A stretch of DNA of 64,000 nucleotides from Blastococcus sp. TF02A-35 (GTDB taxonomy: Bacteria > Actinomycetota > Actinomycetes > Mycobacteriales > Geodermatophilaceae): the NCBI RefSeq assembly GCF_004571075.1, contig NZ_SPQP01000012.1, forward strand, positions 1-64,000, read 5' to 3'. The translations under genes were made by a program, and so were the position numbers. The notes beneath the pieces were generated by a model, which worked only from the letters and a program-made list of their open reading frames with translations, had not been told where the DNA came from and searched no databases. Below are positions 34,820-52,426 of this stretch, in pieces. Every line of letters starts with the position of its first letter. Position 1 is the first letter of the stretch.

Positions 34820-35260
34820 CGCCCACCTCCATGTGGAACCACGGCGTCCGCGCTGTGGTGCAACGGAAGGTACTCCACGAAGCGCAGTAGTGCGCAAGGC
34901 GCGGGCGCGTGTCGCGGCGGACCCGCCCGGCGGCCCCAGCGCGGGCACGTCGACCGCGCGGTGGAGGGTGAGAACGGCGTGCCGGGAGTGAGGTCGGCCG
35001 CACGGCCGGCCGGGGCCGGGGCGGCGGACCTGGGGTGGCGCGCCGCGGTGGCCGGATCGTGATCCCCGCGCGCGGTTACCGGCGAGTAGCCTTCTGGCGC
35101 GCCCGCTATCGTGCGCAGCAGTGCGGGCAGCGGTGCCCGTACGCGCCCGCACGCCCGGCTCGCGAGCCGGGATGGGCGGCGCGCGCACCACACACAGCCT
35201 CGTCGCCCCACGTGGCCGGCGGGAGTCAGCCGACGCCCTCGGGCGTCCGGGGAGGAAAAC
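34820..35260. other. Divergent intergenic region between padR and the EtfD-like gene
   Basis: This 441-bp stretch holds no convincing gene. It contains the operator-like site at 35075-35089 and a small palindrome GCGCA-GTAG-TGCGC around 34884, on the padR side. A TATCGT hexamer at 35107-35112 could be the -10 of the EtfD-like gene. GGAGG immediately precedes the ATG at 35261. The 5' leader of that gene would be about 140 bases. Confidence 0.6.
35075..35089. promoter_or_regulatory. Operator-like site GTTACCGGCGAGTAG upstream of the EtfD-like gene
   Basis: TTACC-N4-AGTA(G) is an imperfect palindrome. The full 15-mer is identical to the one at 52412-52426 upstream of the FadE5-like acyl-CoA dehydrogenase. 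It lies just upstream of a possible -10 (35107). The pattern resembles TetR-family operators of TTAC-N6-GTAA type. Confidence 0.65.
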
Positions 35261-37561
35261 ATGACGGGCCCGCTGCAGATCGTCCTCGGGACGATCAGCG
35301 TCCTGTTGCTCATCGTCGCCTCGGTGCTGGCCTACCGCGCCGTGCGCGCGATGGTGCGGATCATCCGCACCGGCCAGCCCGACGGCACCCGCTGGGGACC
35401 GGTCAAGACCCGGTTGAAGACGACGCTGGTCGAGTCGCTGGGCCACACCCGCATGCTCAAGTGGTCGAGCATCGGCGCCGCCCACTGGTTCGTCTTCATG
35501 GGCTTCTACGGCCTGTTCCTGACGCTGGTCGAGGCGTTCGGCGAGGTCTGGAACCCGGCGTTCCACCTGCCGCTCATCGGCGAGTGGAGCCTGTGGAACC
35601 TGTTCGCCGACATCATCGGCACCGGCACGATCCTCGGCATCCTGTACCTGATCTACCGGCGGCAGAAGGACCACCCGCGCCGGCAGGGCCGCAAGAGCCG
35701 CTTCGCCGGCTCCAACGAGGGCCGCGGCTACTTCGTCGAGGCCGTCGTCCTCGTCGTCGGCATCTGCATCCTGCTGATCCGCGCGCTCAAGGTCTCCTCC
35801 GACCTCACCGACGCGCCCGCCTGGTCGCACCCGATCTCGGGCGCCCTGGCGACGATCCTGCCCGACAGCCCCGACCTGCTCACCGTCGTCGCGTTCATCA
35901 AGATCGCCGTCTCGATGGCCTGGCTCGTGGTCCTCAGCCGGATCCTGAACATGGGTGTCGCCTGGCACCGGTTCAGCGCCTTCCTGAACATCTACGCCAA
36001 GCGCAACGCCGACGGCGCCCCGGCGCTCGGCCCGCTGCTCCCCATGACGTCCGGTGGCAAGCCCATCGACTTCGAGGACCCGGGCGAGGACGACGTCTTC
36101 GGCCGCGGCAAGATCGAGGACTTCACCTGGAAGGGGATGCTGGACTTCACCACCTGCACCGAGTGCGGGCGGTGCCAGAGCCAGTGCCCGGCGTGGAACA
36201 CGGGCAAGCCGCTCAGCCCGAAGATGGTGATCATGGACCTCCGCGACCACCTCTACGCGAAGGCCCCCTACCTCCTCGGCGAGAAGACCGCGTCGGAGAC
36301 GATGCCGGACTACGACGTCCTCAAGCCCTCCGACGAGCAGGTCTGGGCCTCGGGCTACGCCCGCATCGAGGGCACCAACGACGCGCAGGCCCACCGCCCG
36401 CTGGTCGGCACCCTCGAGGAGGGCGGCGTCATCGACCCCGACGTCCTCTGGAGCTGCACCAACTGCGGCGCCTGCGTCGAGCAGTGCCCCGTGGACATCG
36501 AGCACATCGACCACATCGACGACATGCGCCGCTACCAGGTGCTCATCGAGTCGAACTTCCCGTCCGAGGCCGGCGTCATGATGACCAACCTCGAGAAGCG
36601 CGGGAACCCGTGGGGCATGGGCGGCAACGTCCGCGAGGACTGGATCAAGGAGCTCGACTTCGAGGTCCGCATGGCCGACGGCCCGCTGCCGGCCGAGGTC
36701 GAGTACCTGTTCTGGGTCGGCTGCGCCGGCGCCGTCGACGACCGCGCCAAGAAGGTCACCAAGGCCGTCGCCGAGCTGCTGCACACCGCGGGCGTCGAGT
36801 TCGCCGTCCTCGGCAACGGGGAGACCTGCTCCGGCGACCCGGCCCGCCGCATGGGCAACGAGTTCCTGTTCCAGCAGCTGGCCATGGAGAACGTCGAGAC
36901 CCTCAACGGCGTCTTCGAGGGCCGCGTGCCCGGCACCCGCAAGATCGTGGCCACCTGCCCGCACTGCTTCAACTCGCTGGGCAAGGAGTACCCGCAGGTC
37001 GGCGGCGAGTACGAGGTCGTCCACCACACGCAGCTGCTCGGCCAGCTGGTGGAGGAGGGCCGGCTGACCCCGGTCACCCCGGTCGACCGCAAGGTCACCT
37101 ACCACGACCCGTGCTTCCTGGGCCGGCACAACAAGGTCTACACGCCCCCGCGCGAGATCCTGGACTCCGTCCAGGGCCTCACCACGCAGGAGATGCACCG
37201 CTGCAAGGACCGCGGCTTCTGCTGCGGCGCCGGCGGTGCCCGCATGTGGATGGAGGAGAAGATCGGCAAGCGGATCAACGTCGAGCGCACCGAGGAGGCG
37301 CTCGAGCTCGATCCCGACGTCATCTCCACCGCCTGCCCGTTCTGCATCACGATGCTCAGCGACGCGCTGACCGCCAAGAAGCAGAACGGCGAGGCCGGCG
37401 ACCACGTCGAGGTCCTGGACGTCAGCCAGATCCTGCTGCGCTCCATGCAGCCGGTCGCGGTCTCCGCCCAGGGGGCCGAGCAGGGTGCCGACGTGGGCAC
37501 CAAGGCCGACGACGTCGTGGGCCTGGACTCGGCGAACACCATCCACGACCCCGAGAAGTAG
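35261..37561 (+). CDS. etfD: Membrane-bound iron-sulfur reductase, EtfD-like (Rv0338c family)
   Basis: A 766-residue fusion. Five membrane helices (about 5-25, 70-95, 110-132, 158-178 and 205-230) resemble a cytochrome-b/NarI-like anchor. Two 4Fe-4S motifs follow (C299xxCxxCxxxCP and C399xxCxxCxxxCP), then two CCG domains with DPCFLGRHN, CCGAGGARMW and CPFC as in heterodisulfide reductase subunits. In M. tuberculosis the homologous EtfD accepts electrons from EtfBA during fatty-acid beta-oxidation and passes them to the quinone pool. GGAGGAAAAC precedes the ATG. The upstream operator is shared with the acyl-CoA dehydrogenase at 52470. Confidence 0.9.
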   Translation: MTGPLQIVLGTISVLLLIVASVLAYRAVRAMVRIIRTGQPDGTRWGPVKTRLKTTLVESLGHTRMLKWSSIGAAHWFVFMGFYGLFLTLVEAFGEVWNPAFHLPLIGEWSLWNLFADIIGTGTILGILYLIYRRQKDHPRRQGRKSRFAGSNEGRGYFVEAVVLVVGICILLIRALKVSSDLTDAPAWSHPISGALATILPDSPDLLTVVAFIKIAVSMAWLVVLSRILNMGVAWHRFSAFLNIYAKRNADGAPALGPLLPMTSGGKPIDFEDPGEDDVFGRGKIEDFTWKGMLDFTTCTECGRCQSQCPAWNTGKPLSPKMVIMDLRDHLYAKAPYLLGEKTASETMPDYDVLKPSDEQVWASGYARIEGTNDAQAHRPLVGTLEEGGVIDPDVLWSCTNCGACVEQCPVDIEHIDHIDDMRRYQVLIESNFPSEAGVMMTNLEKRGNPWGMGGNVREDWIKELDFEVRMADGPLPAEVEYLFWVGCAGAVDDRAKKVTKAVAELLHTAGVEFAVLGNGETCSGDPARRMGNEFLFQQLAMENVETLNGVFEGRVPGTRKIVATCPHCFNSLGKEYPQVGGEYEVVHHTQLLGQLVEEGRLTPVTPVDRKVTYHDPCFLGRHNKVYTPPREILDSVQGLTTQEMHRCKDRGFCCGAGGARMWMEEKIGKRINVERTEEALELDPDVISTACPFCITMLSDALTAKKQNGEAGDHVEVLDVSQILLRSMQPVAVSAQGAEQGADVGTKADDVVGLDSANTIHDPEK

Positions 37562-37576
37562 CCCACCTGCACACCC

Positions 37577-37614
37577 GGACGGCGCGCGTCCCCCCGAGGG
37601 GGCGCGCGCCGTCC
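37577..37614. terminator. Terminator after the EtfD-like gene
   Basis: A 12-bp perfect stem (37577-37588 with 37603-37614) extends through a C/G-rich inner stem to a CCGA loop, 15 bp past the stop codon. Confidence 0.8.
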
Positions 37615-37640
37615 GCGTTCCCCGGGATAGAAACGTCGCC

Positions 37641-38597
37641 GTGCTGATGCAGCTGCGGGTGACCGTCCCCGCCGACCGGACCGAGCAGGTGCGCGACCTG
37701 TTCGCCGGCGACCCGGGGACCGCGCACCTCGCCGTGCTGCCGGGCGCCGCGGTCGCCCCCGCGGGAGACCTCGTCGTCGCCGACGTCGCCCGGGAGTCCG
37801 CCGACGCCCTCGTCTCGGCCCTGCGCGACCTGGGGGTGGACCGGGACGGCGGCATCGCGATGGTCGCCGTCGACGCCGCCGTGTCCTCCGCCGCCCGCCG
37901 GGCGGAGGAGCGCGCGCCGGGCGACGGCGCGGACGCGGTCGTCTGGGAGCAGGTGGTCCGCACGACCGACGCCGAGTCGTCGCTGTCGGTCTCCTACCTC
38001 GCGTTCCTGACCATCGCCACGCTCCTGGCCGCGGTCGCCATCATCAACGACTCGGCGATCCTGGTGATCGGCGCGATGGTGCTCGGCCCGGAGTTCGCCC
38101 CCCTCGCGGCCCTCGCCGTGGCCGTCCTGCACCGCCGGCCGTCCGTCCTGCGCCAGGCGGCGGTCTCGCTGCTCGTCGGGTTCGCCGTCGCCATCGCGGT
38201 CACCACCCTCGCCGTCCTGGTCGGGCGGGGGCTGGGCTGGTTCGGCACCGAGCTGCTCACCGCCGAGCGCCCGGAGACCGGCTTCATCACCGCGCCGGAC
38301 CGCTGGTCGGTCGTCGTCGCGGTCCTGGCGGGGGTCGCGGGCGTCCTGTCGCTCACCTCCGCCAAGAGCGGGGCGCTGGTCGGCGTCTTCATCTCCGTCA
38401 CCACCGTCCCGGCGGCGGCGGACATGGCGGTCTCCCTGGCGCTGGGCGGCGGCACCGAGCTGCTCCGGGCGGCGACCCAGCTGGGCATCAACCTGGTCGG
38501 CATCCTCGTCGCGGCGCTGGCCACCCTGGCGGTGCAGCGGGCCGTGTGGCACCGGATGCCCCGCACGGTGCCGAAGGTGGAGCGCGTCGGCGCCTGA
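37641..38597 (+). CDS. DUF389 domain membrane protein
   Basis: A 318-residue protein. An N-terminal soluble domain (1-100) resembles a ferredoxin-fold sensor. Six membrane helices (about 120-310) follow, with the DUF389/TIGR00341 hallmarks LLAAVAIINDSAILVIGAM and GPEFAPLAALA. Family members have no established function, and transport or sensing is speculative. Start is GTG 37641 or ATG 37647, and neither has a clear ribosome site. It lies between the terminator at 37614 and the CynX-type MFS gene. Confidence 0.88.
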   Translation: MLMQLRVTVPADRTEQVRDLFAGDPGTAHLAVLPGAAVAPAGDLVVADVARESADALVSALRDLGVDRDGGIAMVAVDAAVSSAARRAEERAPGDGADAVVWEQVVRTTDAESSLSVSYLAFLTIATLLAAVAIINDSAILVIGAMVLGPEFAPLAALAVAVLHRRPSVLRQAAVSLLVGFAVAIAVTTLAVLVGRGLGWFGTELLTAERPETGFITAPDRWSVVVAVLAGVAGVLSLTSAKSGALVGVFISVTTVPAAADMAVSLALGGGTELLRAATQLGINLVGILVAALATLAVQRAVWHRMPRTVPKVERVGA

Positions 38598-38644
38598 CGA
38601 CGGTTGCAGTCGGCCACCAACCCGGCGGGAACGTGCCGCCGGTC

Positions 38645-39985
38645 ATGGAGGACGATCCAGGGGTGACCCGCACCGCCCCGTCCGTCCCCTCGCAGACCGG
38701 GTCCGCGGGGCGCGGCCTGGCGCTGATCGCCGTCGCGATCGTGCTGACCGGCCTCAACCTGCGCACCGCCGTCAACAGCATCGGCCCGGTGCTCGAGGAG
38801 ATCGAGGCCGGACTCGGCCTCTCCAGCGGCCTGGCCGGGCTGGTCACCTCGCTGCCGGTCCTGTGCTTCGCCGCGCTCGGCTTCGCCGGCCCCCCGCTCT
38901 CGGCCCGGTTCCGCGACTCGCACGTGCTGGCCGGCGCGCTGCTGGCCATGGCGGCAGGGCTGGTCCTGCGCAGCGTCGCCGGCTCCTTCGGCCTGTTCGT
39001 AGTCGGCACCGTGATGGCGATGACCGGCGGCGCCCTGGGCAACGTCCTGCTGCCCGGCCTCGTGAAGCGCTACTTCCCCGGCCGCACCGGCCTGCTGGTC
39101 GGCGCGTACAGCACCGCGCTCAGCGTGGGTGCGGCGGTCGCCTCGGTGGCCACCCAGCCGATCGCCGACGCCGTCGGCGAGGGCGGCTGGCGCTGGGCGC
39201 TGGGGATCTGGGCCGTGGCGGCGCTCCTGGCGGCCCTCCCCTGGCTGCTGGTGCGGCCCACCCCCGGGGCGTCCCGGGCGTCGCACACCGCCGTCCGGCT
39301 GCGGGTGGTGCTCCGCAGCCGGCTCGCGCTGGCCCTCACCGCGTTCTTCGGCCTGCAGGCGATGCAGGCCTACGTGATCGTCGGCTGGTCGGCCCAGTAC
39401 CTGCGGGACGCCGGCCTCAGCGCCGCCACCGCCGGGCTGCTGCTGGGCGTCAACTCGATCGTCGCGATCCCGGTGAACGCCGTCGTCCCGGTGCTCACGG
39501 TCCGGCCGCGGCTGCAGTGGCCGCTGGTCTGCTTCTTCATGACCTGCTACGCCGCCGGCTGGGTCGGGCTCTGGACCGCACCCCTGGCCGCCCCGTGGCT
39601 GTGGATGGTCCTGCTCGGGCTGGGTCTCGGCACCTTCGCGATGGTGCTGGCCCTGCTGGGCCTGCGGGCCCGCACCCCCGTGACGACGGCGGCGCTGTCG
39701 ACCGTGACCCAGGGCTGGGGCTACCTGGTCGCCGGCGCCGGGCCGCTGCTGGTGGGCGTCCTGCGCGGTGCGACGGGCGGGTACGACGGCATGTTCGTGC
39801 TGGTGCTGGTCGGCGTCGCCGGGCTGTGGTCGCTGGGCTGGCTGGTCACCCGCGACCGGTTCGTCGACGACGAGATCGCCCACCTGCTGCCCACCGGGGC
39901 GGGGAGCGCCCGCGACGACGACCCGATCGAGGTCGCGGGCGCCGAGGCGCCGGTCAGCCGGGGCGGCGGGTCTCCGCGCGGGTGA
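38645..39985 (+). CDS. MFS transporter, CynX/NimT type
   Basis: A 12-helix major facilitator of about 446 residues with the CynX motif [20 protein letters not shown] after the first helix. The inter-domain loop is near residue 210 and the tail is acidic. Characterised relatives transport cyanate or nitroimidazole-like compounds; the substrate here is unknown. ATG 38645 has no ribosome site, while GTG 38663 has GGAGG 11 bases upstream and may be the real start. The 3' end overlaps the convergent dcd gene by 32 bp. Confidence 0.88.
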
Positions 39986-40541
39986 AGTTGCGGTAGGACC
40001 GCGACGGCGTGGGGCCGCGCTGGTCCTGGTAGCGCGAGCCGTAGACCGCCGACCCGTACGGGTGCTCCGCCGCGCTCGTCAGGCGGAACATGCACAGCTG
40101 GCCGATCTTCATCCCGGGCCAGAGCGTGATCGGCAGGTTCGCGACGTTGGAGAGCTCCAGCGTGATGTGGCCCGAGAACCCGGGGTCGACGAAGCCCGCC
40201 GTCGAGTGGGTGAGCAGGCCCAGCCGGCCGAGCGAGGACTTGCCCTCCAGCCGGGCGGCGAGGTCGTCGGGCAGGCTGATGACCTCGAGGGTGGAGCCGA
40301 GGACGAACTCCCCGGGGTGCAGGACGAACGGCTCGTCGCCCTCGGGCTCGACGGGCGTCGTCAGGTCGTCCTGCTGCTCGGCCGGGTCGATGTGGGTGTA
40401 CCGCGAGTTGTTGAAGACGCGGAAGTACCGGTCGAGCCGGACGTCGATGCTCGAGGGCTGCACCAGGGCCGGGTCGTAGGGGTCGATGCCGAGGCGTCCC
40501 TCGGCGATCGCGGCCGTGATGTCGCGGTCGCTCAGCAGCAT
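39954..40541 (-). CDS. dcd: dCTP deaminase (bifunctional, dUMP-forming type in actinobacteria)
   Basis: The 195-residue trimeric enzyme supplies dUTP/dUMP for dTMP synthesis. It shows [11 protein letters not shown], the [10 protein letters not shown] motif, the nucleotide-binding [11 protein letters not shown] and catalytic Glu region [20 protein letters not shown], and the C-terminal lid [18 protein letters not shown]. Mycobacterial Dcd also hydrolyses dUTP, and this sequence could do the same, by analogy. ATG 40541 gives the standard N terminus. The 3' end overlaps the opposing MFS gene. Confidence 0.96.
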
Positions 40542-40674
40542 GGCGCGGAGTCTAGGGAACGCGCCCACCCACCCCTCCGGGTGAAGGCCGCTCAAGCCGG
40601 GGGCCAGGTGCGCCGATGCGCCCGGGAACGCCTCCCGGATCGTCCGGGCAGGCCGCGCCGGAGGGCTGCAACGG

Positions 40675-43383
40675 ATGACGAGCAAGCGGGCCATGGGGAT
40701 CGTCCTGACCACAGCGGTGGTGGCCGGCTACGCCGGCGCCGCCGTGTGGTCGGCCTGGGCGGAGCCCGGCATCGAGCTGGCGGGCGGCTACGGGGAGGGC
40801 GACGGCCTCACCCGCTACGCCCTGACCACCGAGGCCGGCACCGCCGACCCGGCCCTCCTCGCCGCGCTGGAGGCCGTGCCCGGCGTGGCCTCGGCGCAGT
40901 GGCTCGACGGCGACCGCGCGCTCGTCGCCGCCAGCGGCGTGACCGCCGAGCGGCTGCGGGACGTGCCGGGGGTCCGCGAGGTGGAGCTCTCGCCCTCGGT
41001 CCCCGTCATGAGCACGGTGACCGACCCGTACGCCGTGGCCTACGGCTGGAACCTCGAGAACACCGGCAGCAACGCCTACCAGACCGCGGCCGTCGCCGAC
41101 GCCGACGTCGACGCCACCACCGGGTGGGACACGACCACCGGGGCGGGCCGCGTCGTGGCCGTCGTCGACAGCGGCTTCGACTCCGACCACCCCGACCTGG
41201 TCGGGTCGCTGTGGAGCAACCCCGACGAGCGCTGCGGCAGCGTCGACACCGACGGCAACGGCCTGCGCGGCGACTGCAACGGCTGGAACTTCTACACGAA
41301 CAGCTCGGACATCGACAACGGCGCGATGGGCACGCACGGGACCAGCGTCTCCAGCGTGGTCGGCGGCCGCGCCAACAACGGCGTGGGCTCGGCCGGCCTG
41401 GCCCCGAACGTGTCGATCATGCCCCTGGTCATCGGCGGCGGCAGCACCGTCGACGTGAACCTCGGCGCGCGCGCCATCCGCTACGCCGTCGACCACGGCG
41501 CCGACGTCATCAACGCCTCCTGGGGCGGCGCGGTCACCGGCAGCACCCTGCAGGCGCTGCGCGAAGCCGTCGCCTACGCCGCGGCGCACGACGTGCTCGT
41601 CATCGCCGCGGCCGGCAACGACTCGCTGAACCGCGACAGCAGCATCCTCTACCCGGCGAGCCTGACGGAGCCGAACGTCATCACCGTCGGCAGCTCCACC
41701 GCGTCCGACACGGTGGCCGCCCACTCCGCCTACGGGGCCTCGTCGGTCGACCTCTTCGCCCCCGGCGAGAAGCTGCCCATTGCGTGGAACGACGGCGGGA
41801 TGCGCGTGGGCAACGGCACCTCGTTCGCGGCCCCGCACGTCGCGGCCGCCGTCGCGATGTACCGCGCGGTCATGCCGGAGGCGACCGCCCTGGAGATCAA
41901 GGACGCGCTGCTCGCCGACGTCGACCCCAAGGCGGCGTTCGTCGGCCGGTCGGTCACCGGCGGCCGGCTGACGATGGACGGCCTGGCCGCCCGCACCGGC
42001 GAGCAGGTGCGGTACGCCTTCACGTCGATGACGGCCCGCCCCGGCACCGTCACGCCCACCATCGGCGTGAGCGCGCCGGCCGCCAGCGGCCGCTACTCGG
42101 TCGACGTCGGCCTCGGCATGGAGCACGCCGGCGAGATCTGGGCGCTGGCCGACAAGGACGTGACCCTGGACGGCACCAGCGTGCCGACCGACGACGCCGG
42201 GGACGCCCGCTTCGACCTGGGCGTGCACCAGGCCCTGGACGGCTTCGCCCTGGCGCCGTCGATGGACCTGGCCGCCGGCCGCTACGTGCTCACCGTGCAG
42301 CTGTACCGCGACGGCGAGCCGGTCGGTCGGATGACCGCCGCTCCCCTGCTGGTGTCGGTGCCGGGCACGGCGCCCGGCACCTCCCCGGGCGGCTCGACCC
42401 CCGGTGGGACGACCCCGGGCACCACGCGGCCCGGCACCTCCCCCGGCGGCACCACCCCCGCGCCCGGCGGCAGCACGCCGACCACCCCGGGCACCCCGGC
42501 TCCGGGCACCCCGGCCCCGACGGCACCGCGCACGCCCACCCCGGGCACGCCGGCCCCGGGCACCCCGGCTCCCGGCACCCCCGCGCCGGGCACCACGACG
42601 CCGGGCACCCCGGCTCCGGGCACCCAGCCCGGCACCTCGCCCGGTGGCACCCAGCCCGGGACGACGCCGGGCACCCAGCCCGGCACCTCGCCCGGTGGCA
42701 CCTCGCCCGGTGGCACCTCGCCGGGTGGCAGCACGCCGAGCACGCCGGCTCCGGGTGGCACCACGCCGGGGACCTCGCCGGGCACCTCGCCCGGTGGCAC
42801 GGCGCCGACCGCTCCGGGGACCAAGACCTACCCCGAGGTGAGCGACTTCCGGATCACGTCGCTGAGCCCGGACGTCGTCGCCACGAGCGGCGGGTCCCTG
42901 GTCACGGTCACCGGCCTGGCGCTGCCCAGCATGCCGACGGTGCGCATCGGCGCGACCGCGACGGCGACGGTCGTGCAGAGCTCGGCGACCAGGCTGGTGT
43001 TCCGGGTCCCGGCTCGCGTGGCCGGCACCTACGACGTGTCGGTGCACGCCCGGGACGGCCGCTCCGCGGTCCTGGACGACGCGCTCACCTACACCGAGAC
43101 GGTCGGCACGGCGCCGGGCGGCACCACGCCCACCTCGCCGGCCGCGGGCGGCACGTCGCCGGGCACCGGCACCACGCCGGGCACGTCGCCGGGCACGTCG
43201 CCGGGCGGCTCGACGCCGGGCGGCAGCACCCCCGGTGGCACCTCCCCCGGCACGGGCACGCCGCCCGCCGCCGGCGCCGAGGGCCCCTCGGGCGAGCGCC
43301 TGGTCCGCTCCGACCGGTTCCGCGCCCTCGGGCACGTCTGGTCGCAGAACTGCTCGGTCAGCTGCACCGGCGTCGCGATCTGA
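40675..43383 (+). CDS. Secreted S8 subtilisin-like serine protease with Pro/Gly/Thr-rich linkers and IPT/TIG domain
   Basis: A 902-residue exported protease. In order: signal peptide (about 1-30), I9-like pro-region (about 45-115), and S8 catalytic domain with Asp165 ([13 protein letters not shown]), His221 ([11 protein letters not shown]) and Ser383 ([12 protein letters not shown]). A beta-rich domain spans about 410-560, and a 155-residue PGT/PGGT linker about 563-720. An IPT/TIG fold covers about 725-805, followed by a second PGT linker and a tail with two cysteines (NCSVSC) that could form a disulfide. No LPxTG or membrane anchor is seen, so it is probably secreted. Substrate is unknown. 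Confidence 0.93.
42361..42825 (+). repeat. Low-complexity repeats encoding PGT/PGGT linker in the subtilase
   Basis: Degenerate 9-15 bp units (CCGGGCACC, CCCGGTGGCACC) encode PGTPAPGT and PGTSPGGT repeats over about 155 codons. A shorter second block lies at about 43105-43270. The arrays stay in frame, and length variation between strains is likely. Confidence 0.85.
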
Positions 43384-43420
43384 CGCCGCTCCGCGCGCCT
43401 CTCCGGCGCGTCCCCTGAAC

Positions 43421-43463
43421 CACCGCGCCCCGTCCGGCTTCCCCATACGGACGGGGCGCGGTG
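43421..43463. terminator. Terminator after the subtilase gene
   Basis: A 16-bp perfect stem (43421-43436 with 43448-43463) with an 11-base loop, 38 bp past the stop codon. Confidence 0.85.
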
Positions 43464-43537: not shown

Positions 43538-44116
43538 GTGCTCGACACCCGCCCGGCGCCCCACGCGTCCCGTGGCGCCCGACCCACCATCCGCCCCACC
43601 GGGCGGGAGCGGAGCTTCGCCGCCGACGAGCTGATCGTCTCCAAGACCGACCCCCGCGGCGTCATCACCTACGCGAACGACGTCTTCCTCCGGGTGAGCG
43701 GGTACGAGCTGGACGAGGTCCTCGGCCAGCCGCACAACCTCGTGCGGCACCCCGAGATGCCGCGCGCGGTGTTCAAGCTGCTGTGGGACACCCTGGCCGC
43801 GAAGCAGGAGATCTTCGCCTACATCAACAACCTGGCCTCCGACGGCGACCACTACTGGGTGCTGGCGCACGTCACGCCGTCCCAGGGCCCCGACGGCCGG
43901 GTCGTCGGCTACCACTCCAGCCGCCGCAAGCCGTCCGCGGCCGCCATCCGGCGCGTGCAGCCCGTCTACGCGCAGCTGCTCGCCGAGGAGCGCCGGCACT
44001 CCGGTGCCCGAGCCGCGGCCGAGGCCTCCTCGCGGCTGCTCGGCGACCTGCTCGCCGAGCAGCAGCAGAGCTACGAGGAGTTCATCTGGAGCATCATCAC
44101 CCGCGAGGAGCACTGA
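43538..44116 (+). CDS. PAS-domain sensor protein (Aer-like), no output domain
   Basis: The 192-residue protein has one PAS fold (about residues 30-130) with Aer/TlpA-like motifs: [39 protein letters not shown] and [11 protein letters not shown] helical tail of about 50 residues follows. Aer-type PAS domains bind FAD and report redox state. It has no membrane segment or methyl-accepting domain of its own. One base separates it from the chemoreceptor gene, so a split Aer with the two parts acting together is plausible. GTG 43538 has AGGGAG 7 bases upstream. Confidence 0.85.
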
Positions 44117-44117
44117 G

Positions 44118-45083: not shown

Positions 45084-45135
45084 GCGGGGGCGGCTGCCGC
45101 GGGGGCGGGGCGACCAGGTAGTCTCGTCGCCGTTC

Positions 45136-45209
45136 GCGGGTGTAGTTCAATGGTAGAACATCAGCTTCCCAAGCTGACAGTGCGAGTTCGATTCTCGTCA
45201 CCCGCTCCA
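45136..45209 (+). tRNA. tRNA-Gly (anticodon CCC)
   Basis: A complete cloverleaf: acceptor GCGGGTG/CACCCGC, D arm GTTCAATGGTAGAAC, anticodon stem TCAGC/GCTGA with loop TTCCCAA, T arm GCGAG/CTCGT with TTCGATT, discriminator T and an encoded CCA. A TAGTCT hexamer (45119-45124) is a likely -10 just upstream. Confidence 0.97.
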
Positions 45210-45241
45210 CTCGCCGCCGGGGCACCGGCACGCGCGACCGC

Positions 45242-45454
45242 TCAGCGGTCCTCCCAGTCCCCGTCGTGGGTCAGCTCCTCGCCGGGGCGCACCGGCCAGG
45301 CCTCCAGCTCCGGCGCCCGCAGCACCGCCTCGACCAGCTCGGCGGGACCGCCGACCGACGTCTGGTCGACGTCCACCTCGGTCACCACCAGCCGGCCCCG
45401 GTCGGCCGGGGCGGGGGCCTTTGGTCCCTGGGACACGACCGGATGGCGCACCAC
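45242..45454 (-). CDS. Small hypothetical protein
   Basis: A 70-residue frame from ATG 45454 encodes a soluble acidic protein. It has a short strand-rich start (MVRHPVVSQG) and a helix with LVEAVLRAPELEAWPV, and it ends in EELTHDGDWEDR. No family is recognised. It fills the gap between the tRNA and the histidine kinase gene on the opposite strand. It reads like protein-coding sequence, but no strong ribosome site supports it. Confidence 0.5.
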   Translation of the reverse strand: MVRHPVVSQGPKAPAPADRGRLVVTEVDVDQTSVGGPAELVEAVLRAPELEAWPVRPGEELTHDGDWEDR

Positions 45455-45533
45455 GATGAGCTGACCGCTTCCGGAACCGCATCGGCACTCCTACGGTTCG
45501 GGCCGTGCCCCCGCCCGAGCTCCCGGACCGTCG

Positions 45534-47012
45534 GTGACCGACGGCCGCGCCACCCCGGCGGCCCCCGGGCCGTTGGAGGCCACGCTGCGCCGACTGGCCG
45601 AGGCCGCCGCCGAGCACCTGGGCGGCGACCACGTGGCCCTGACCGCGCGCTCGGCGGACGACGAGCCGGAGCGCTCCGTCACGCTGGGGGCGGCCGGGGC
45701 GGGTGCCCCTGCGCCGTCGCACGCGCTGGAGCTGCAGCTGCGTGCCGACGACGCCGTGCTCGCCGCCCTGCGCGTCGCCCGCGCCGCCGGCGCACCCGCC
45801 TTCACCCCGGCAGACCGCGCGCGGGGAGCGGCGTTCGCGGCCGGCGCCGCCCCGGCCGTCGAGAACGCCCTCCTGGTCGAGCACGCACGCCTCCGGCGCC
45901 GCTGGGCCCTGGCCGGCACCGAGATCGCCAGCGCCCTCCTCTCGGGCCGGCCCGCCGACCAGGTGCTGCGCGAGGCCGCCGCCCGGGTGGCCGAGCTCGC
46001 CGGCGCCGATGCCGTCGGGGTGCTGGTACCCGAGCCGGACGACGACACGACCCTGCGCATCACCGCGGCCGTGGGACCGACGGCCGCGGAGCTGGAGGGC
46101 GTCCGCCTGCCGCTGGGCGAGACGCGCCTGCACGCGGCGCACCGCTCCGGGGTGCCGCTGCTCATCGACGACGCCGCGACCCCACCGCCGGGGACCCGGC
46201 TCGACGAGGTGGTCGACGCGATCGCCCGCTGGTACGGCCCGGCGCTGTTCATCCCGCTCGGCGGCCCCGCGCCCCTCAGCACCCTGACCGTCATGCGGAT
46301 GCGGGGCCGGCCACCCTTCGACCGCCGGGTCCTCGACCTGGCGGCGGCGTTCGCCACACAGGCCACCGTGGCGATGGAGCTGGCCCGCAGCCAGGAGCGG
46401 GAGCGGCGCCTGCAGCTCCAGGCCGACCGGGACCGGATCGCCCGCGACCTGCACGACCACGTGGTGCAGCGGATCTTCGCCACCGCCCTGGCCCTCGACC
46501 GCGTGGGGCGGTCGCTGGAGGCCACCGCCCCGGAGGTGGCGGAGCGGATCGCCGAGCGCGTGGACGAGCTCGACGGCACCATCGCCCGCATCCGGGCGTC
46601 GATCTTCGAGCTGCACGGGGCGGAGGACGCCTCGCCGGACGCCGTCCGCCGGCGGCTCACCGAGATCGTGCGCTCGGTGACCGAGGGCCACGGGCTCCGC
46701 CCCGCACTCCGGGTGCACAACGAGGTCGAGGACCTGCCACCGGACCTCGTGCCCGACGTGGTGGCGGTGGTCCGCGAGCTGGTCACCAACGTGGTGCGGC
46801 ACGCGGCGGCCTCGCGCCTGACCGTGACGGTGGCGATCGCCGACGGCGTGCGGGTGGTGGTCACCGACGACGGCTGCGGGCTGCCGCCGGTGACGGTGCG
46901 CAGTGGGCTGGCCAACCTGGCCGACCGGGCGGAGCGGCGCGGCGGGCGGCTGGCGGTCTCCGCCGCCCCGTCGGGCACCGAGATCGAGTGGGCGGTCCCG
47001 CTCCCGCGGTGA
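45534..47012 (+). CDS. GAF-domain sensor histidine kinase (HisKA_3, DevS/NarX-like)
   Basis: A 492-residue cytoplasmic kinase. GAF-like sensory domains cover about residues 15-120 and 125-280. The dimerisation/phosphoacceptor helix has DRIARDLHDHVVQRIF (His307), and the HATPase_c domain has the N box RELVTNVVRHA and GCGLPP. There is no membrane segment, so it senses a cytoplasmic or diffusible cue. It converges with a NarL-type response regulator gene 10 bp away, its likely partner despite the opposite orientation. GTG 45534 is the first start. Confidence 0.92.
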   Translation: MTDGRATPAAPGPLEATLRRLAEAAAEHLGGDHVALTARSADDEPERSVTLGAAGAGAPAPSHALELQLRADDAVLAALRVARAAGAPAFTPADRARGAAFAAGAAPAVENALLVEHARLRRRWALAGTEIASALLSGRPADQVLREAAARVAELAGADAVGVLVPEPDDDTTLRITAAVGPTAAELEGVRLPLGETRLHAAHRSGVPLLIDDAATPPPGTRLDEVVDAIARWYGPALFIPLGGPAPLSTLTVMRMRGRPPFDRRVLDLAAAFATQATVAMELARSQERERRLQLQADRDRIARDLHDHVVQRIFATALALDRVGRSLEATAPEVAERIAERVDELDGTIARIRASIFELHGAEDASPDAVRRRLTEIVRSVTEGHGLRPALRVHNEVEDLPPDLVPDVVAVVRELVTNVVRHAAASRLTVTVAIADGVRVVVTDDGCGLPPVTVRSGLANLADRAERRGGRLAVSAAPSGTEIEWAVPLPR

Positions 47013-47022
47013 GCCGCCGCCC

Positions 47023-47697
47023 TCAGCGGAAGCCGCGCTGGTCGCGCAGCTCGGTGGCCAGGATCGCGGCCTGGGTGCGCCGCTCGAGGCCGAGCTTGGC
47101 GAGCAGGTGGCTGGTGTAGTTCTTCACGGTCTTCTCGGCCAGGCCCATGCGGTCGCCGATCTGCCGGTTGGTCAGGCCCTCGCCGATGAGCCGCAGCACG
47201 ATGCGCTCCTGGTCGGTGAGCCGGGCCAGCCGGTCGGTGCCCAGCCGCGCGGCCGGCGGCCGGAGCCCTTCCTGGGCCAGCGTCCCTCCGGCAGCGACCG
47301 TGCGCACCGCCGTCACCAGGGCCGGGCCGCGCACCTGCTTGAGCAGGAAGCCGGCCGCGCCGGCGCCGAAGGCCGCGTCGCGGGCGTCCTGCTCGCCGTA
47401 GCTGGTGAGCACCAGGCAGGGCAGCCCGGGCACCCGGGCACGCAGCTCCCGGCACAGCCCCGCGCCGTCGCCGTCCGGGAGGCGCATGTCCACGATCACC
47501 ACGTCCGGCCGCACGGCCGGCACGCGGGCCAGCGCCTCGGCGACCGTGCCGGCCTCACCGGCGACGGTGATGCCGGCGTCGTCCTCCAGGACCTCGGCCA
47601 CCCCGCGCCGCACCACCTCGTGGTCGTCGACCAGGAAGACGCGGATGCGGGTGGACGGCTGCACGACCCCTCCCACGCTCGATGTGATCTCGGCCAC
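47023..47697 (-). CDS. NarL/DevR-type response regulator
   Basis: A 224-residue two-domain regulator: receiver (about 17-135) with acidic pair DD24-25, phospho-acceptor Asp70 (VIVDMRLPD) and the conserved Lys in LLKQ. A LuxR-type helix-turn-helix follows (about 155-215, GLTNRQIGDRMGLAEKTVKNYTSHLLAKL split by turns). It is transcribed toward the GAF histidine kinase gene, an unusual convergent pairing. DNA targets are not evident here. Confidence 0.93.
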   Translation of the reverse strand: MAEITSSVGGVVQPSTRIRVFLVDDHEVVRRGVAEVLEDDAGITVAGEAGTVAEALARVPAVRPDVVIVDMRLPDGDGAGLCRELRARVPGLPCLVLTSYGEQDARDAAFGAGAAGFLLKQVRGPALVTAVRTVAAGGTLAQEGLRPPAARLGTDRLARLTDQERIVLRLIGEGLTNRQIGDRMGLAEKTVKNYTSHLLAKLGLERRTQAAILATELRDQRGFR

Positions 47698-47733
47698 AGA
47701 GCAGCGTAGGGCCCGCGCCCCCGTCCCGGCAGG

Positions 47734-48762
47734 TCAGGCGGGCAGGAGCAGCGCCGCGTAGAGGGTCAGTCCGGGGCCGAAGGCCATGGCGACGATCGGC
47801 CCGTCGACGTCGGCCAGCTCCTGCAGGACCAGCAGCACGGTGGCCGAGGAGCAGTTGCCGTGCTCGGACAGGACCCGCCGGGACGCCGCGACCTGCTCCT
47901 CGCGCAGCCCCAGCTCGTCGCGGACGACGTCGATGATCCGCGGGCCACCGGGGTGCACCGCCCAGCCCGCCACGTCCTCCGGCCGGAGCCCGGCGCCGGC
48001 GAGCAGCTCGTCCACGACGTCGCCCACGTGCCGGGAGAGCACGTCGGGCACCTTCGGGGAGAGCCCCATCCGGAAGCCGAGGTCGGTCACGTCCCAGGTC
48101 ATGTGGTCGGCGGTCGAGGCGTCGGTGCGGGCCACGACCCCGGCGAGGCGGTGGCCGCGGCCGGCCCCCGGCTCGACGACGACGGCGGCCGCGGCGTCGG
48201 AGAAGAGCGCGTGCGCCACCACCTGCTCGAGGTCCCGCTGGGCCGGCTGCACGTGCAGGCTGGTCAGCTCGCAGCAGAGCAGCACCGCCGGGCGGGAGCG
48301 CGCGGTGACGAAGTCGCCGACGGCGGCCAGCCCCGGGATCGCGGCGTAGCAGCCCATGTGGCCCACCAGCAGCCGCTGCAGGCCTGCCGGCATGCCCAGG
48401 TCGCTTGCCAGCCGGATGTCCAGGCCGGGCGTCGCGTACCCGGTGCAGGTGGCGACGGCGAACAGGCCGACCTCACCGGGGGCCAGCCCGGCGGCGTCCA
48501 GCGCCCCGGCGACCGCCTGCTTCCCCAGGGGCAGCGCCTCCTGGATGTAGCGGGCCATGCGCGCCCCGGTGCCCCACCCGCTGAGGTCCTCGTCCATCGG
48601 GTTGGCCACGGCGTGCCGACGGCGGACGCCGGCGCCCATGAAGATGCGCTCTGCGGCGCGGACGCCCTCGTAGTGCCGGGCGAAGAACCCGTCCCACGCG
48701 GCCCGCTGGTCCAGCGTGGTCGGCAGCGCCGACCCCGCGCCGGTGACGACGGCCGCGGTCAC
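47734..48762 (-). CDS. Type III polyketide synthase (chalcone synthase-like)
   Basis: A 342-residue homodimeric ketosynthase-type enzyme that condenses malonyl-CoA on an acyl-CoA starter without an ACP. The triad is intact: Cys138 (GHMGCYAAIPGL), His270 (WAVHPGGPRI) and Asn303 (EHGNCSS). The C terminus has AFGPGLTLYAALL. The start is GTG 48762, with GGAG a few bases upstream; GTG 48783 is an alternative. It follows a methyltransferase gene by about 70 bp, and the two could make a methylated pyrone or resorcinol. The product cannot be predicted. Confidence 0.92.
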   Translation of the reverse strand: MTAAVVTGAGSALPTTLDQRAAWDGFFARHYEGVRAAERIFMGAGVRRRHAVANPMDEDLSGWGTGARMARYIQEALPLGKQAVAGALDAAGLAPGEVGLFAVATCTGYATPGLDIRLASDLGMPAGLQRLLVGHMGCYAAIPGLAAVGDFVTARSRPAVLLCCELTSLHVQPAQRDLEQVVAHALFSDAAAAVVVEPGAGRGHRLAGVVARTDASTADHMTWDVTDLGFRMGLSPKVPDVLSRHVGDVVDELLAGAGLRPEDVAGWAVHPGGPRIIDVVRDELGLREEQVAASRRVLSEHGNCSSATVLLVLQELADVDGPIVAMAFGPGLTLYAALLLPA

Positions 48763-48835
48763 GCTCGCCGCTCCGCGGCGCACCTGCTGGGGATCATGCT
48801 CACGACGGTACGTGCGCCCCGGGACCGACGCTCCT

Positions 48836-49543
48836 TCACCGCTTGCGCCCGTAGCCGGCGAAGACGACCGCGGTCGAGCGCACGGGCTTCATGCGCACCA
48901 CGTCCCGACGGCGCGACAGCCAGGCCACCAGGTCGCGCACCGACGGCCGGAGGCCGACCAGCCGCAGGTCCAGCCCCAAGCGTTCGGCCGCCGACAGCAG
49001 CCGCGCGCGGTCGACGAACAGCGCCGGGTCGTGGATGCCGCGCGGCGGGCCGCCGGGCAGGCGCTCGGCGACCGTGACCATGAGGAAGCGGCCGACCCGG
49101 GTGTCGGCGAGGGCGTCGACGACCAGCGTCCCGCCCGGACGGAGCAGCCGCGCGCACTCCGCGAGCACGGCGACGTCGTCCGCCACGTGCTCGAGCACCT
49201 CACCGGCGACGACGACGTCGGCGCAGCCGTCGGCCAGCGGCACGGCGAGCACCGACCCCTGCACCGGCAGGACACCGTGCCCGCCGGCCACGCGGAGGCC
49301 CGCCTCGCCCAGGTCGACGCCGACGTGCCGGTAGCCCAGCCGGGCGACGTGCGGCGCCATGAGCCCGCCCCCGCAGGCCAGGTCCACCAGGAGCGCGCCG
49401 GGGGTGGCCGCCTGCGGGATGTGCTCGGCACGGGAGGCCGCCAGCCAGTGCAGGGCGGCGAACCCGCCCGAGGGCTGCCACCACTGGTCGGCCAGGTCGT
49501 CGTACTGCGCCGGGTCGTTGCGCGGCCGGGTGGTGCTTCGCAC
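48836..49543 (-). CDS. Class I SAM-dependent methyltransferase (UbiG-like)
   Basis: The 235-residue enzyme has the SAM-binding motifs LLVDLACGGGLMAPHVARLG (motif I, residues about 50-70), VGVDLGEAGL (motif II), DVVVAGEVLEHV (motif III/IV) and RLLRPGGTLVV. An N-terminal DPAQYDDLADQWWQPSGGF segment resembles UbiG-type O-methyltransferases. The gene starts 6 bp after the DUF3140 stop and precedes the type III polyketide synthase. A tailoring role for that product is likely but unproven. Confidence 0.88.
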   Translation of the reverse strand: MRSTTRPRNDPAQYDDLADQWWQPSGGFAALHWLAASRAEHIPQAATPGALLVDLACGGGLMAPHVARLGYRHVGVDLGEAGLRVAGGHGVLPVQGSVLAVPLADGCADVVVAGEVLEHVADDVAVLAECARLLRPGGTLVVDALADTRVGRFLMVTVAERLPGGPPRGIHDPALFVDRARLLSAAERLGLDLRLVGLRPSVRDLVAWLSRRRDVVRMKPVRSTAVVFAGYGRKR

Positions 49544-49549
49544 GCAGGG

Positions 49550-49894
49550 CTAGCCCTTCTTCAGCGGGTCGTGGCCCCAGTTCATCAGGGAGTAGCGCCA
49601 CCTGGAGGTCTCGACGTCCTCCCCCTTCGGCTCCTGGGCCAGGTGGCGCTGGACGTAGCCGTGCACCTTGCGCATGTGCGCGAGGTCGTCGTCGGTCAGG
49701 TCGTCCTTCCTGGTGCGGAGCAGCTCGACGATGCGCCGTCCCGAGGCGTGGCCGGTCGACTCGCCGCCGTCGTCGCCCTTCTGGCCGACGGCCTGGGACT
49801 CCTCGCCGGCGAGCCACCTCTCCAGCTCGCCGGCGGTCATGTTCACCGCCTCGCCGAACTGGCGCCTGGTCTCGTCGGGGTCCTCGCCGGCCAT
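49550..49894 (-). CDS. DUF3140 family protein
   Basis: A 114-residue soluble protein with the DUF3140 pattern: FGEAVNMTAGELERWLAGEES, a GHASGRRIVELLRTRKDDLT block, and the C-terminal YVQRHLAQEP with WRYSLMNWGHDPLKK. Function is unknown. Relatives are frequent in soil actinobacteria and halotolerant bacteria. GGAGG lies 4 bases before ATG 49894. It heads the DUF3140, methyltransferase and type III PKS gene string. Confidence 0.9.
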   Translation of the reverse strand: MAGEDPDETRRQFGEAVNMTAGELERWLAGEESQAVGQKGDDGGESTGHASGRRIVELLRTRKDDLTDDDLAHMRKVHGYVQRHLAQEPKGEDVETSRWRYSLMNWGHDPLKKG

Positions 49895-50035
49895 CGGTCC
49901 TCCGCTCACGTCGTCCACCCCCGGTACCTCGCGACCCGCTCCCGGAAACCGCCGGTCACCTGCGCCGACCGGCGGTTCACCGCCGGGAGGACCGGGCACA
50001 GGCCTGCCGACCCGTACCGACGAGGAGGAGCCGAC

Positions 50036-50191
50036 ATGAGCGAGTCCCACCGCACTCCCCGCAGCGCCGAGCGCGCCGAGGGCGACCCCGCCGGCGAGGA
50101 GAGCGGCAGCGGCCGCACCCCGCACCCGGAGGAGCCGGCCGAGGGCCGCTCCGACGCCGCCGGCGACGGCGCGGACACGCCGGACGCCTGA
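50036..50191 (+). CDS. Tiny disordered acidic protein
   Basis: A 51-residue product rich in Glu, Gly, Ser, Asp and Pro with no hydrophobic core (starts MSESHRTPRSAERAEGD). A very strong ribosome site (GAGGAGGAG, 5 bases before ATG 50036) indicates real translation. The gene is divergent from DUF3140. It resembles other tiny proteins in 50.0-54.8 kb in composition. Function is unknown. Confidence 0.65.
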   Translation: MSESHRTPRSAERAEGDPAGEESGSGRTPHPEEPAEGRSDAAGDGADTPDA

Positions 50192-50317
50192 ACCATCCGC
50201 GGACGACGCTCACCGCCGCGCGTGCCCGGCGGCGGTGAGCAGCGTCTCTGCCCCGATAGGGGGCACTTCGCCGGCGGGGCGGTTTCCTCGAGTCACCCCC
50301 CGGGCACGCTGCGGCAC

Positions 50318-50449
50318 ATGGAGCAGACCACGAACCAGCCCCGCACCGAGGAGTCGACCGGGACCTCCACCGAGGAGCCCCGCGCCGAGGCCGCCGCGCG
50401 CGCCGTCGCCCGGATGCTCGCCAACCCGCGCCGCACGCGCCGCACCTGA
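50318..50449 (+). CDS. Tiny hydrophilic protein, uncertain
   Basis: A 43-residue frame (MEQTTNQPRTEESTGTST) with a short Ala-rich helix (AEAAARAVARMLANP) and a basic end. No good ribosome site is seen, so the support is only codon use and position among similar mini-proteins. It may be spurious. Confidence 0.35.
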   Translation: MEQTTNQPRTEESTGTSTEEPRAEAAARAVARMLANPRRTRRT

Positions 50450-50600
50450 CCGGTCCGGCCCCGCAGGACCGGCGCTCTCGTCGCGCTGGGTGACCACACC
50501 GACCACATCGATCCCCGGCGTCCCGTTCAGCCCGGGCGCCTCTCGTCACCCAGAGCAACCACCCCGGCGTGCCGCGAACTGCTCCGTCACGTACCGGTGC

Positions 50601-51239
50601 ATGCTCGCTGACGTGACCGCCGTACTCCCCCGCGCCGCCGCCGACGACACCACGGCACCGGTCCGCCGCAGCCGAGCAGAGCGTCAGGAGATCGTGCTCG
50701 ACACCGCCGAGCGCCTGTTCTCCAGCCGCAGCTCGCGCAGCGTCGGCATGGACGAGCTGGTCCGGGAGACCGGGCTGGGGAAGATGACGGTCTACCGGCT
50801 CTTCAAGAGCAAGGACGACCTCGTCGGCGCCTACCTCTCGCGGAAGGCGGCCACCGTCCTGGCCTTCATCGACGCCGAGCTGGCCCGCCTGGAGGGCGAC
50901 CCGCGCGCGGCGCTGCTGTCGGTCGTCGACGCCGTCGAGCGCGACGTGACGCGCACCGGCTTCCGCGGCTGCCCGTTCAACAACGTCAGCAGCGAGTACG
51001 ACGACCCGCAGCACCCCGCCCGCAGCGCCGCCGCGGACTACAAGTTCGAGCTCTACGGCCGCCTCGAGCGGCTGGCCGAGGAGGTCGTGCCCGGTGGTGG
51101 CGAGGACCTCGCGGCCCAGCTGCACCTGATCATCGACGGCATGTACCTCTCCGGCGGGCTGCTCGGCCCCGACGGGCCGGCCGCCCACGGCCGCCAGCTG
51201 GCCGAGAAGCTGATCGACGCGGCGGTCGCCCGCGCCTGA
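50601..51239 (+). CDS. TetR family transcriptional regulator
   Basis: A 212-residue regulator with an N-terminal helix-turn-helix (about residues 30-75: VGMDELVRETGLGKMTVYRLFKSKDDLV, split by the turn). The C-terminal ligand domain contains RGCPFNNVSSEY, a Cys-Pro-Phe motif common in TetR proteins of the YxaF/LmrA-like group. ATG 50601 or GTG 50613 could start it. No palindrome is obvious in its own upstream region, and whether it controls the acyl-CoA dehydrogenase downstream cannot be told from sequence. Confidence 0.9.
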   Translation: MLADVTAVLPRAAADDTTAPVRRSRAERQEIVLDTAERLFSSRSSRSVGMDELVRETGLGKMTVYRLFKSKDDLVGAYLSRKAATVLAFIDAELARLEGDPRAALLSVVDAVERDVTRTGFRGCPFNNVSSEYDDPQHPARSAAADYKFELYGRLERLAEEVVPGGGEDLAAQLHLIIDGMYLSGGLLGPDGPAAHGRQLAEKLIDAAVARA

Positions 51240-51276
51240 GCGGGCGCCCCGCCCGGCCGCCCCGCAGGATGGTCCG

Positions 51277-51702
51277 GTGACCAGCGACCGCACCCGCCCC
51301 GACCTCGACGACACGACCGTCGAGGCGCTGGGCAAGCTCTCCGAGGCCCTGGAGACCGTCGACCAGGCCCGGGGCTTCCTGTACGCGTTCCACCAGCTCA
51401 CCGGCAAGGCCGACCGCCTGCTGCAGGAGTCGGTGGAGCTGTTCGAGGAGGCAGGGGCGACCGAGCTCGCCGCCGACCTGGACCGGGACCTGGTGGGGCG
51501 CAACGTGATCGCCGACCGCTGGACCTTCCAGATCGTCGAGGACTTCGACGAGAGCTACTGGGGCACCTTCCGCCGCTACGACGCCCGTGCGCGCGACGAG
51601 CTGGCCGGCGGTGACCGGCACGTCTACGAGGCGCGGATGAAGCAGCGCGAGCGGACGAAGGGCCACCCCCACCACGAGGCGGGCCCCGCCCTCTCCGGCT
51701 GA
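51277..51702 (+). CDS. Conserved hypothetical protein
   Basis: A 141-residue soluble, charged, helical protein. Visible features are a helix with VEALGKLSEALETVDQARGFL, a FHQLTGKADRLL segment, and a WTFQIVEDFDESYWGTFRRYD block, followed by a His-rich tail (GHPHHE). Similar proteins occur in Geodermatophilaceae and relatives, but I know of no function. GTG 51277 starts it 37 bp after the tetR gene, so cotranscription is possible. Confidence 0.7.
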   Translation: MTSDRTRPDLDDTTVEALGKLSEALETVDQARGFLYAFHQLTGKADRLLQESVELFEEAGATELAADLDRDLVGRNVIADRWTFQIVEDFDESYWGTFRRYDARARDELAGGDRHVYEARMKQRERTKGHPHHEAGPALSG

Positions 51703-51744
51703 CCGCGCGGTTTCCGTCGGCCCGGCACCGGGAAGACCCAGGTC

Positions 51745-51915
51745 ATGACCATGCCTGACGGGAACAACCGCGGCTCCGACCGCGAGGCGAAGCCGCTGGG
51801 CGCCGAGAAGGCGCCGGGCGAGGACCGCGACTCGCTGGGCGCCACCGAAGGCCCCGCCGACGGGATCGCCGGCACCGCCTACCCGCCGGCCGGCACGGAG
51901 CCGGACGCCCGATGA
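51745..51915 (+). CDS. Tiny disordered acidic protein upstream of the LapA-domain gene
   Basis: A 56-residue product (MTMPDGNNRGSDREAKPLGA) rich in Gly, Asp, Glu, Ala and Pro with no hydrophobic segment. Its stop overlaps the next start codon (ATGA), so it is translationally coupled to the LapA-domain gene, which supports its reality. ATG 51745 or ATG 51751 could be the start. Function is unknown. Confidence 0.65.
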   Translation: MTMPDGNNRGSDREAKPLGAEKAPGEDRDSLGATEGPADGIAGTAYPPAGTEPDAR

Positions 51916-52286
51916 GCGCGCCGACCCCGCCGCCGTCCCGCGACCCGCTGAGCGTCGGCCTGGGCTCCCCCGGGGAGACCGGGCCGACGACGGCCACCCC
52001 CGGTGCCACCCCGCCGGCCACCGGCCCCCGCAGCACGCCCGCGCCCACCCGGGAGCGCCACACCGGCCGCGCCATCGGCCGGTCGCTGGCCCTGGCGCTG
52101 CTGATCTTCGTCACCGTCGTCCTGGTGCTGTTCGTCGTCTTCAACGACCAGACGGTGCCCATCAGCCTGGTGTTCGGTGACGTCGAGGCACCCCTGGTGC
52201 TCGCGCTGCTCGTCGCGGCGGCGCTGGGTGGCCTGCTGGTCTGGCTGGCCGGCCTCGTGCGACGGGCCCGCCGCCGCAACCGCTGA
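51912..52286 (+). CDS. LapA-domain membrane protein (DUF1049-like)
   Basis: A 124-residue protein. Residues 1-55 are a disordered Pro/Thr-rich region, and 56-120 hold two membrane helices with the LapA signature FNDQTVPISLVFGDVEAPLV and a basic tail. LapA-domain proteins help lipopolysaccharide assembly in proteobacteria; in actinobacteria their role is unknown. It overlaps the tiny upstream gene. A strong hairpin 27 bp after its stop ends the unit. Confidence 0.85.
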   Translation: MSAPTPPPSRDPLSVGLGSPGETGPTTATPGATPPATGPRSTPAPTRERHTGRAIGRSLALALLIFVTVVLVLFVVFNDQTVPISLVFGDVEAPLVLALLVAAALGGLLVWLAGLVRRARRRNR

Positions 52287-52312
52287 CGTCCGGGGCCGGC
52301 AGGCCCCCGGAG

Positions 52313-52360
52313 CCACGAGAGGGCCATCTCCTCCCTGAGGGGCAGATGGCCCTCTCGTGG
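52313..52360. terminator. Terminator after the LapA-domain gene
   Basis: A 17-bp perfect stem (52313-52329 with 52344-52360) with a 14-base loop that can itself pair. Confidence 0.88.
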
Positions 52361-52389
52361 CGTGTCGGAGCACCCGACCCTTGCCGTTG

Positions 52390-52426
52390 TTACCGATGGG
52401 TAATAGCGTTTGTTACCGGCGAGTAG
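52390..52426. promoter_or_regulatory. Tandem TTAC-type operators upstream of the FadE5-like gene
   Basis: Site 1, TTACCGATGGGTAA (52390-52403), is a perfect palindrome, TTACC-N4-GGTAA. Site 2, GTTACCGGCGAGTAG (52412-52426), has one mismatch in the right arm and is identical to the site upstream of the EtfD-like gene. The palindromes start 23 bp apart, about two helical turns, so dimers would lie on one face. The FadE5-like ATG is 44 bp downstream. Confidence 0.8.

Follow-up and report, generated by a model that had tools for sequence, protein, structure and literature searches.

A palindromic operator shared by fadE5 and etfD in Blastococcus and across the class, with FasR as its candidate regulator

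Background

Acyl-CoA-responsive repression of β-oxidation over a scattered regulon is known from FadR of Escherichia coli, a GntR-family protein, and from FadR/YsiA of Bacillus subtilis, both of which use operators other than the one described here. In this study a 64,000-nucleotide stretch of Blastococcus sp. TF02A-35 (contig NZ_SPQP01000012.1, positions 1–64,000, forward strand; hereafter "the window") was analysed, in which a palindrome with the core TAC-N6-GTA lies before fadE5, encoding an acyl-CoA dehydrogenase, and before etfD, encoding the membrane outlet for electrons from the electron transfer flavoprotein (ETF). The closest described systems are mycobacterial. FdmR (Rv0238) is a long-chain-acyl-CoA-responsive repressor (PMC12403877) and a key regulator of fadE5 (PMC9262360). 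FasR (Rv3208) is an activator of fas-acpS that is released by long-chain acyl-CoA, and in Mycobacterium tuberculosis it binds three inverted repeats of the fas promoter (PMC7382501). A TAC-N6-GTA palindrome was predicted before fatty-acid genes in 2012 (PMC3388012); it was found in groups of two or three sites, was tied to palmitate-induced gene clusters, and was reported before Rv2524c, Rv3229c and Rv3230c, with three sites at the fas promoter. The oligonucleotide crystallised with FasR also contains TAC-N6-GTA (PMC7382501).

The Blastococcus locus shares features with each of these systems. FdmR has fadE5 as a reported target, and mycobacterial fadE5 carries the same operator, whereas the Blastococcus genome has no clear FdmR ortholog. 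For FasR, an ortholog is present and tandem TAC-N6-GTA sites have been published at fas; its known targets, however, are synthesis genes, which it activates, whereas the sites described here precede degradation and electron-transfer genes and would serve repression. The 2012 palindrome has the same core but was reported before other genes, and the words fadE5, etf and Rv0338c are absent from the main text of that paper.

Results

Operator sites in the window

As claimed by an initial annotation of the window, a 15-bp sequence, GTTACCGGCGAGTAG, was present base for base at 35075–35089 and 52412–52426 (all window features are on the + strand unless stated otherwise). With up to two mismatches allowed it occurred twice in the window against 0.12 times expected, and two occurrences were reached in none of 100 shuffles. 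The additional perfect TTACC-N4-GGTAA palindrome placed by that annotation at 52390 was also found: TTACCGATGGGTAA (52390–52403) was the only match to this pattern in the window at ≤1 mismatch (0.02 expected; one reached in 2 of 100 shuffles). Since the 15-mer, read as TTACC-GGCG-AGTAG, repeats the palindrome imperfectly, fadE5 has two operator units 23 bp apart, operator 1 being TTACCGATGGGTAA and operator 2 TTACCGGCGAGTAG (52413–52426), while etfD has one, again TTACCGGCGAGTAG (35076–35089). The unit can be written TTACY-N4-RGTAA, with the core TAC-N6-GTA.

The gene identities proposed earlier held. The product of etfD (35261–37561), a membrane iron-sulfur reductase, matched Pfam CCG and Fer4 (4Fe-4S), with 9ojn as the best solved chain (E 1.2e-240), and the product of fadE5 (52470–54308) matched the FadE5 structure 6kse (E 1.6e-252).

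Sites across the Blastococcus genome

A search with a 13-mer at two mismatches was too permissive (92 places against 25 in the reversed control), and the palindromic pattern was used instead. At ≤1 mismatch TTACYNNNNRGTAA gave 18 sites, compared with 10 for its reversed control, and the core NTACYNNNNRGTAN was intact in 14 of them. Genes around the sites were called by a G+C-by-frame script and then scanned for families. Rather than dozens of hits at unrelated genes, 10 of the 14 core-perfect sites were found before nine genes whose products would act in acyl-CoA oxidation, in electron transfer or in the ethylmalonyl-CoA route. These are fadE5, which has two of the sites, etfD, etfB, crotonyl-CoA carboxylase/reductase (ccr), a thiolase, a 3-hydroxyacyl-CoA dehydrogenase, a methylmalonyl-CoA-mutase-like protein, a CitE-like lyase and another acyl-CoA dehydrogenase. 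On our reading of the protein families, the carboxylase/reductase, the mutase and the CitE-like lyase would belong to the ethylmalonyl-CoA route. The other four core-perfect sites preceded a FabG1-like reductase, an MlaF-like ABC ATPase, pyruvate kinase, and a divergent pair of a TIM-barrel protein and a protein of no known kind. The FabG1-like target (C8:44359) did not turn up in the four other family genomes that were mapped and may be due to chance.

The four broken-core sites had no neighbour of a related family and were treated as chance. Two of them (C14:65072 and C24:44367) precede proteins without a Pfam match, one (C54:17618) precedes a TrwC-relaxase-like protein, and one (C68:2013) is flanked by a MerR-family gene and a gene for a 622-aa protein without a Pfam match.

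Conservation in the family

The families and the class are taken here to be Geodermatophilaceae (that of the window), Mycobacteriaceae (f2) and Actinomycetes. At E 1e-150, FadE5 was found in 47 and EtfD in 54 of 57 genomes of the window's family, and 30 loci of each, the window's own included, were examined. The operator was present at 30/30 FadE5 and 28/30 EtfD loci, with two sites 22–23 bp apart at 26 of the FadE5 loci. No further matches occurred in the 145 kb of the FadE5 loci (56 hits) or the 159 kb of the EtfD loci (28 hits). Both EtfD misses (L078 and L083) came from genomes with a second EtfD copy. G028 and G050 each hold two EtfD copies, and the single copy examined in each was without the operator.

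Sites were also counted in nine family genomes. Seven had 17–30 sites (controls 2–17), and G042 and G047, which had neither FadE5 nor EtfD at the threshold, had 6 sites each (controls 3 and 6). Fifty site-bearing stretches were then taken from four of the nine, after removal of the sites at fadE5 and etfD and of most sites with a broken core. Close relatives of the Blastococcus targets were present in 29 of the 50, one of them being FasR (G055); the remaining 21 had none, four of these holding more distant relatives of an acyl-CoA dehydrogenase or thiolase. Recurrence was found in all four genomes for etfB, ccr, the thiolase and the mutase, in three for the hydroxyacyl dehydrogenase and the acyl-CoA dehydrogenase, in two for the MlaF-like gene, the CitE-like gene and the divergent pair, and in one alone, G044 of the same genus, for pyruvate kinase. 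In one family genome (L291, G009:C45:19012), a site, TTACCCGCGAGTAG, stood directly before the start of a 212-aa TetR gene.

Conservation in mycobacteria and the class

Among the best 80 of 385 loci from a scan with mycobacterial FadE5 (79 with mycobacterial titles), a site was found ≤300 bp upstream of fadE5 at 80/80 and two sites at 66/80. One locus (L123), on a contig titled as an Acidobacteria metagenome-assembled genome, encoded, behind the same operator pair, a FadE5 that shares 86% identity with the mycobacterial query, and this contig was probably mis-binned.

In a class sample FadE5 was present in 102 and EtfD in 105 of 118 genomes. The fadE5 operator was examined in 83 of the 101 FadE5-bearing genomes besides that of the window, and a site lay ≤350 bp from the assigned start in all 83 (at L315, where the start is unclear, 339 bp away). 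At 29 of these loci (L308–L336) the 54 upstream sites were all the sites found in their 136 kb. The etfD operator was examined in 49 of 104 other class genomes, over 600 bp before the match start (29 genomes) or ~900 bp (20), and was present in 31 of the 44 with FadE5 and in none of the five without it (Fisher test, shared ancestry ignored, p 0.0045). The fadE5/etfD pairing noticed at the outset was thus conserved within the family and beyond it.

Overlap with promoter elements

In the window, operator 1 lies in the spacer between a possible −35 box, TTGCCG (52381–52386), and, 17 bp on, a possible −10 box, TAGCGT (52404–52409), of fadE5. Operator 1 was likewise placed between TTGNNN and TANNNT at 28 of the 30 family loci, the boxes being 17–18 bp apart in 27 of the 28. 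The etfD operator overlaps a possible −10 box, TAGCCT (35087–35092), and TANNNT overlapped it at the same offset in 23/28 family sites. In the class, TANNNT stood at the right end of the upstream operator in 41 of 49 pairs, of the downstream operator in 10 of 49, and of single operators in 17 of 32; L312 and L318, with truncated flanks and a fixed start, gave no site in this count over 83 loci. Since the predicted operators overlap promoter boxes, a bound protein would block the promoter, and repression is therefore the natural reading.

The spacing of tandem sites was 22–23 bp in the family, 25–27 bp in mycobacteria and 20–28 bp in the class, with one pair at 59 bp. A spacing of about two helical turns suggests two dimers side by side.

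Two observations were made on the mycobacterial loci. Many of their fadE5 promoters (L106–L185) had TTGCGT followed, after a 16-bp spacer in which the first operator lies, by TATAGT (sequence of L106). In L155 (15105) and many other loci of that scan, a related palindrome, TTACTCTGGAGTAA, whose fixed centre differs from that of the fadE5 sites, lay downstream of fadE5, in the gap that separates a divergent thiolase gene from a FabG-like gene.

FdmR and FasR

The TetR gene downstream of fadE5 in L155 and L111 was taken to be fdmR, from the position of Rv0238. In L155 a TTACY-N4-RGTAA site stands ~36 bp upstream of the probable start of this gene and 3 bp upstream of its longest reading frame. 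In the Blastococcus genome no clear FdmR ortholog was found, the best match (27%, 65.6 bits) being the FasR ortholog. FdmR matches below E 1e-60 were present in 8/118 class genomes, all of family f2, a distribution that speaks against FdmR as the regulator everywhere.

The FasR ortholog (G000:C87:23893–24531) matched the FasR model NCBIfam NF053731 at E 5.2e-74 (248 bits, below the cut-off of 330) and the structure 6o6p at E 4.7e-59, and a tree grouped it with 6o6n (support 84/95); we take 6o6n–6o6p to be M. tuberculosis FasR. The stretch ADRAGVSKPVLYQHF, with VSKPVLYQHF in the recognition helix, was the same in the solved FasR and in the ortholog. FasR matches below E 1e-45 were found in 107/118 class genomes, among them 99 of the 102 with FadE5 (Fisher test, likewise ignoring shared ancestry, p 2.4e-6). 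Two class genomes, G144 and G164, have just two TetR_N genes each, FasR, with VSKPVLYQHF in both, and a second TetR. The recognition stretch of the second TetR differs between the two genomes, and the core of the fadE5 operator is unchanged.

In family fasR promoters, an element like GAACYCGCCGGTAACA was located 26–27 bp before the start and was ≤2 mismatches from the operator pattern in 26/30 loci. It resembles part of the crystallised FasR oligonucleotide, scores weakly (5.7–11.9 bits) on an operator matrix built from 130 class fadE5 sites, and may simply hold a −10 box.

Discussion

The operator and its regulon are well supported. We consider it likely, at roughly two chances in three, that the sites are operators for a single TetR-type repressor that responds to acyl-CoA and is of the FasR/FdmR kind, and we lean slightly towards FasR itself, so that the ortholog at C87:23893–24531 would by a small balance of probability be the repressor in this genome. 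The single co-ordinating regulator suggested by the initial annotation is consistent with the shared operator, though it would most probably not be the TetR that was named there. Bound at the TAC-N6-GTA palindromes, the repressor would cover the promoters and hold the target genes off. When fatty acid arrives, long-chain acyl-CoA would release it, by analogy with FdmR and FasR; with one shared repressor released, the FadE5 dehydrogenase, the soluble carrier ETF and the membrane outlet EtfD would consequently rise together.

Several findings weigh against this proposal. FasR has been described as an activator of fas, and repression is what we infer here; a regulator from outside the TetR family could also be the binder. 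On the operator matrix the crystallised FasR oligonucleotide scored 7.2 bits, a value reached by 79 of 20,000 shuffles and 26 of 20,000 random sequences, against 19.6 for the window site, and the element before Blastococcus fasR scored 5.7. FasR was also encoded by 8 of the 16 class genomes that lack FadE5 and by 56/57 family genomes, including G042 and G047; its presence therefore discriminates little and does not track the regulon in the family. Conversely, in three drafts (G102, G114 and G115) FadE5 comes with the operator, but no FasR match reaches below E 1e-45. G052 carries 23 sites (control 13) even though FadE5 had no match there, which speaks against a simple story of loss. The etfD site was missing in 13 of the 44 class genomes with FadE5, namely all eight of family f23, G126 and G113 (two of the seven f2 genomes examined for it), G075, G065 and G131; the f23 etfD starts were extrapolated from partial matches, and in G077 a single imperfect hit lay barely within the estimated gene.

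The same three drafts would fit a regulon under the control of another TetR in this genome, with FasR governing synthesis alone, which we regard as a less likely alternative, at about one chance in four. Candidates are a FasR-like paralog (C13:92734–93339), present in this genome and 36% identical to FasR, the putatively MadR-like protein at C57:86540, or another TetR. Several operator-bearing genomes (e.g. G077, G078, G090 and G131), however, have FasR itself as their single FasR-like match at E 1e-15 or better, and in G144 and G164 the only other TetR differs in its recognition stretch from one genome to the other. MadR was rejected because its published motif, TCTGTGxxxxxxxGT (PMC8872791), is unlike the TTACY-N4-RGTAA sites.

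The regulator candidate of the initial annotation, the TetR-family gene at 50601–51239, is 1.15 kb away from the fadE5 operators, and its relatives adjoin fadE5 in other family genomes. Its own gene has no preceding operator, its recognition stretch differs from those of FasR and FdmR, and its similarity to FdmR is weak (24.8 bits, rank 10 among 12 hits). Neither TetR_N gene of G144 and G164 is close to it, although the fadE5 operator is kept there, and it is very improbable as the repressor. Still more improbable is a purely local role for the etfD copy, tied to the PadR-family gene divergent to etfD (34487–34819, − strand; PadR match E 5.5e-17), whose start is ~0.26 kb from the etfD operator; this would leave the operator shared with fadE5, etfB and other genes unexplained.

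If the preferred FasR reading is extended to the class, FasR may be an ancestral, class-wide fatty-acid switch, a TetR counterpart of E. coli FadR that, besides its role in synthesis, represses β-oxidation, ETF, EtfD and acetyl-CoA assimilation, with its paralog FdmR later assuming control of degradation at these operators in mycobacteria. We put this forward tentatively and think it rather doubtful as a whole.

The initial annotation knew of no described link of this kind. Part of it is already known, namely FdmR at fadE5 in mycobacteria (PMC9262360), TAC-N6-GTA before fas and Rv3229c/Rv3230c (PMC3388012) and FasR at fas. In the accessible parts of the open-licence literature, PMC13083937 included, no text on the regulation of etfD was found, nor was an operator shared by fadE5 with etfD and ETF, or its conservation across the class, which is weak evidence of novelty. 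What would be new is the extension of a known kind of regulon to ETF and EtfD and across the class.

Conclusions

Through a shared operator the cell would set dehydrogenase, carrier and outlet together, which would avoid reduced flavin without an exit. The shared motif allows direct tests of which protein is the regulator, and as a single short sequence it can be used to recognise the fatty-acid regulon throughout a large class of bacteria.

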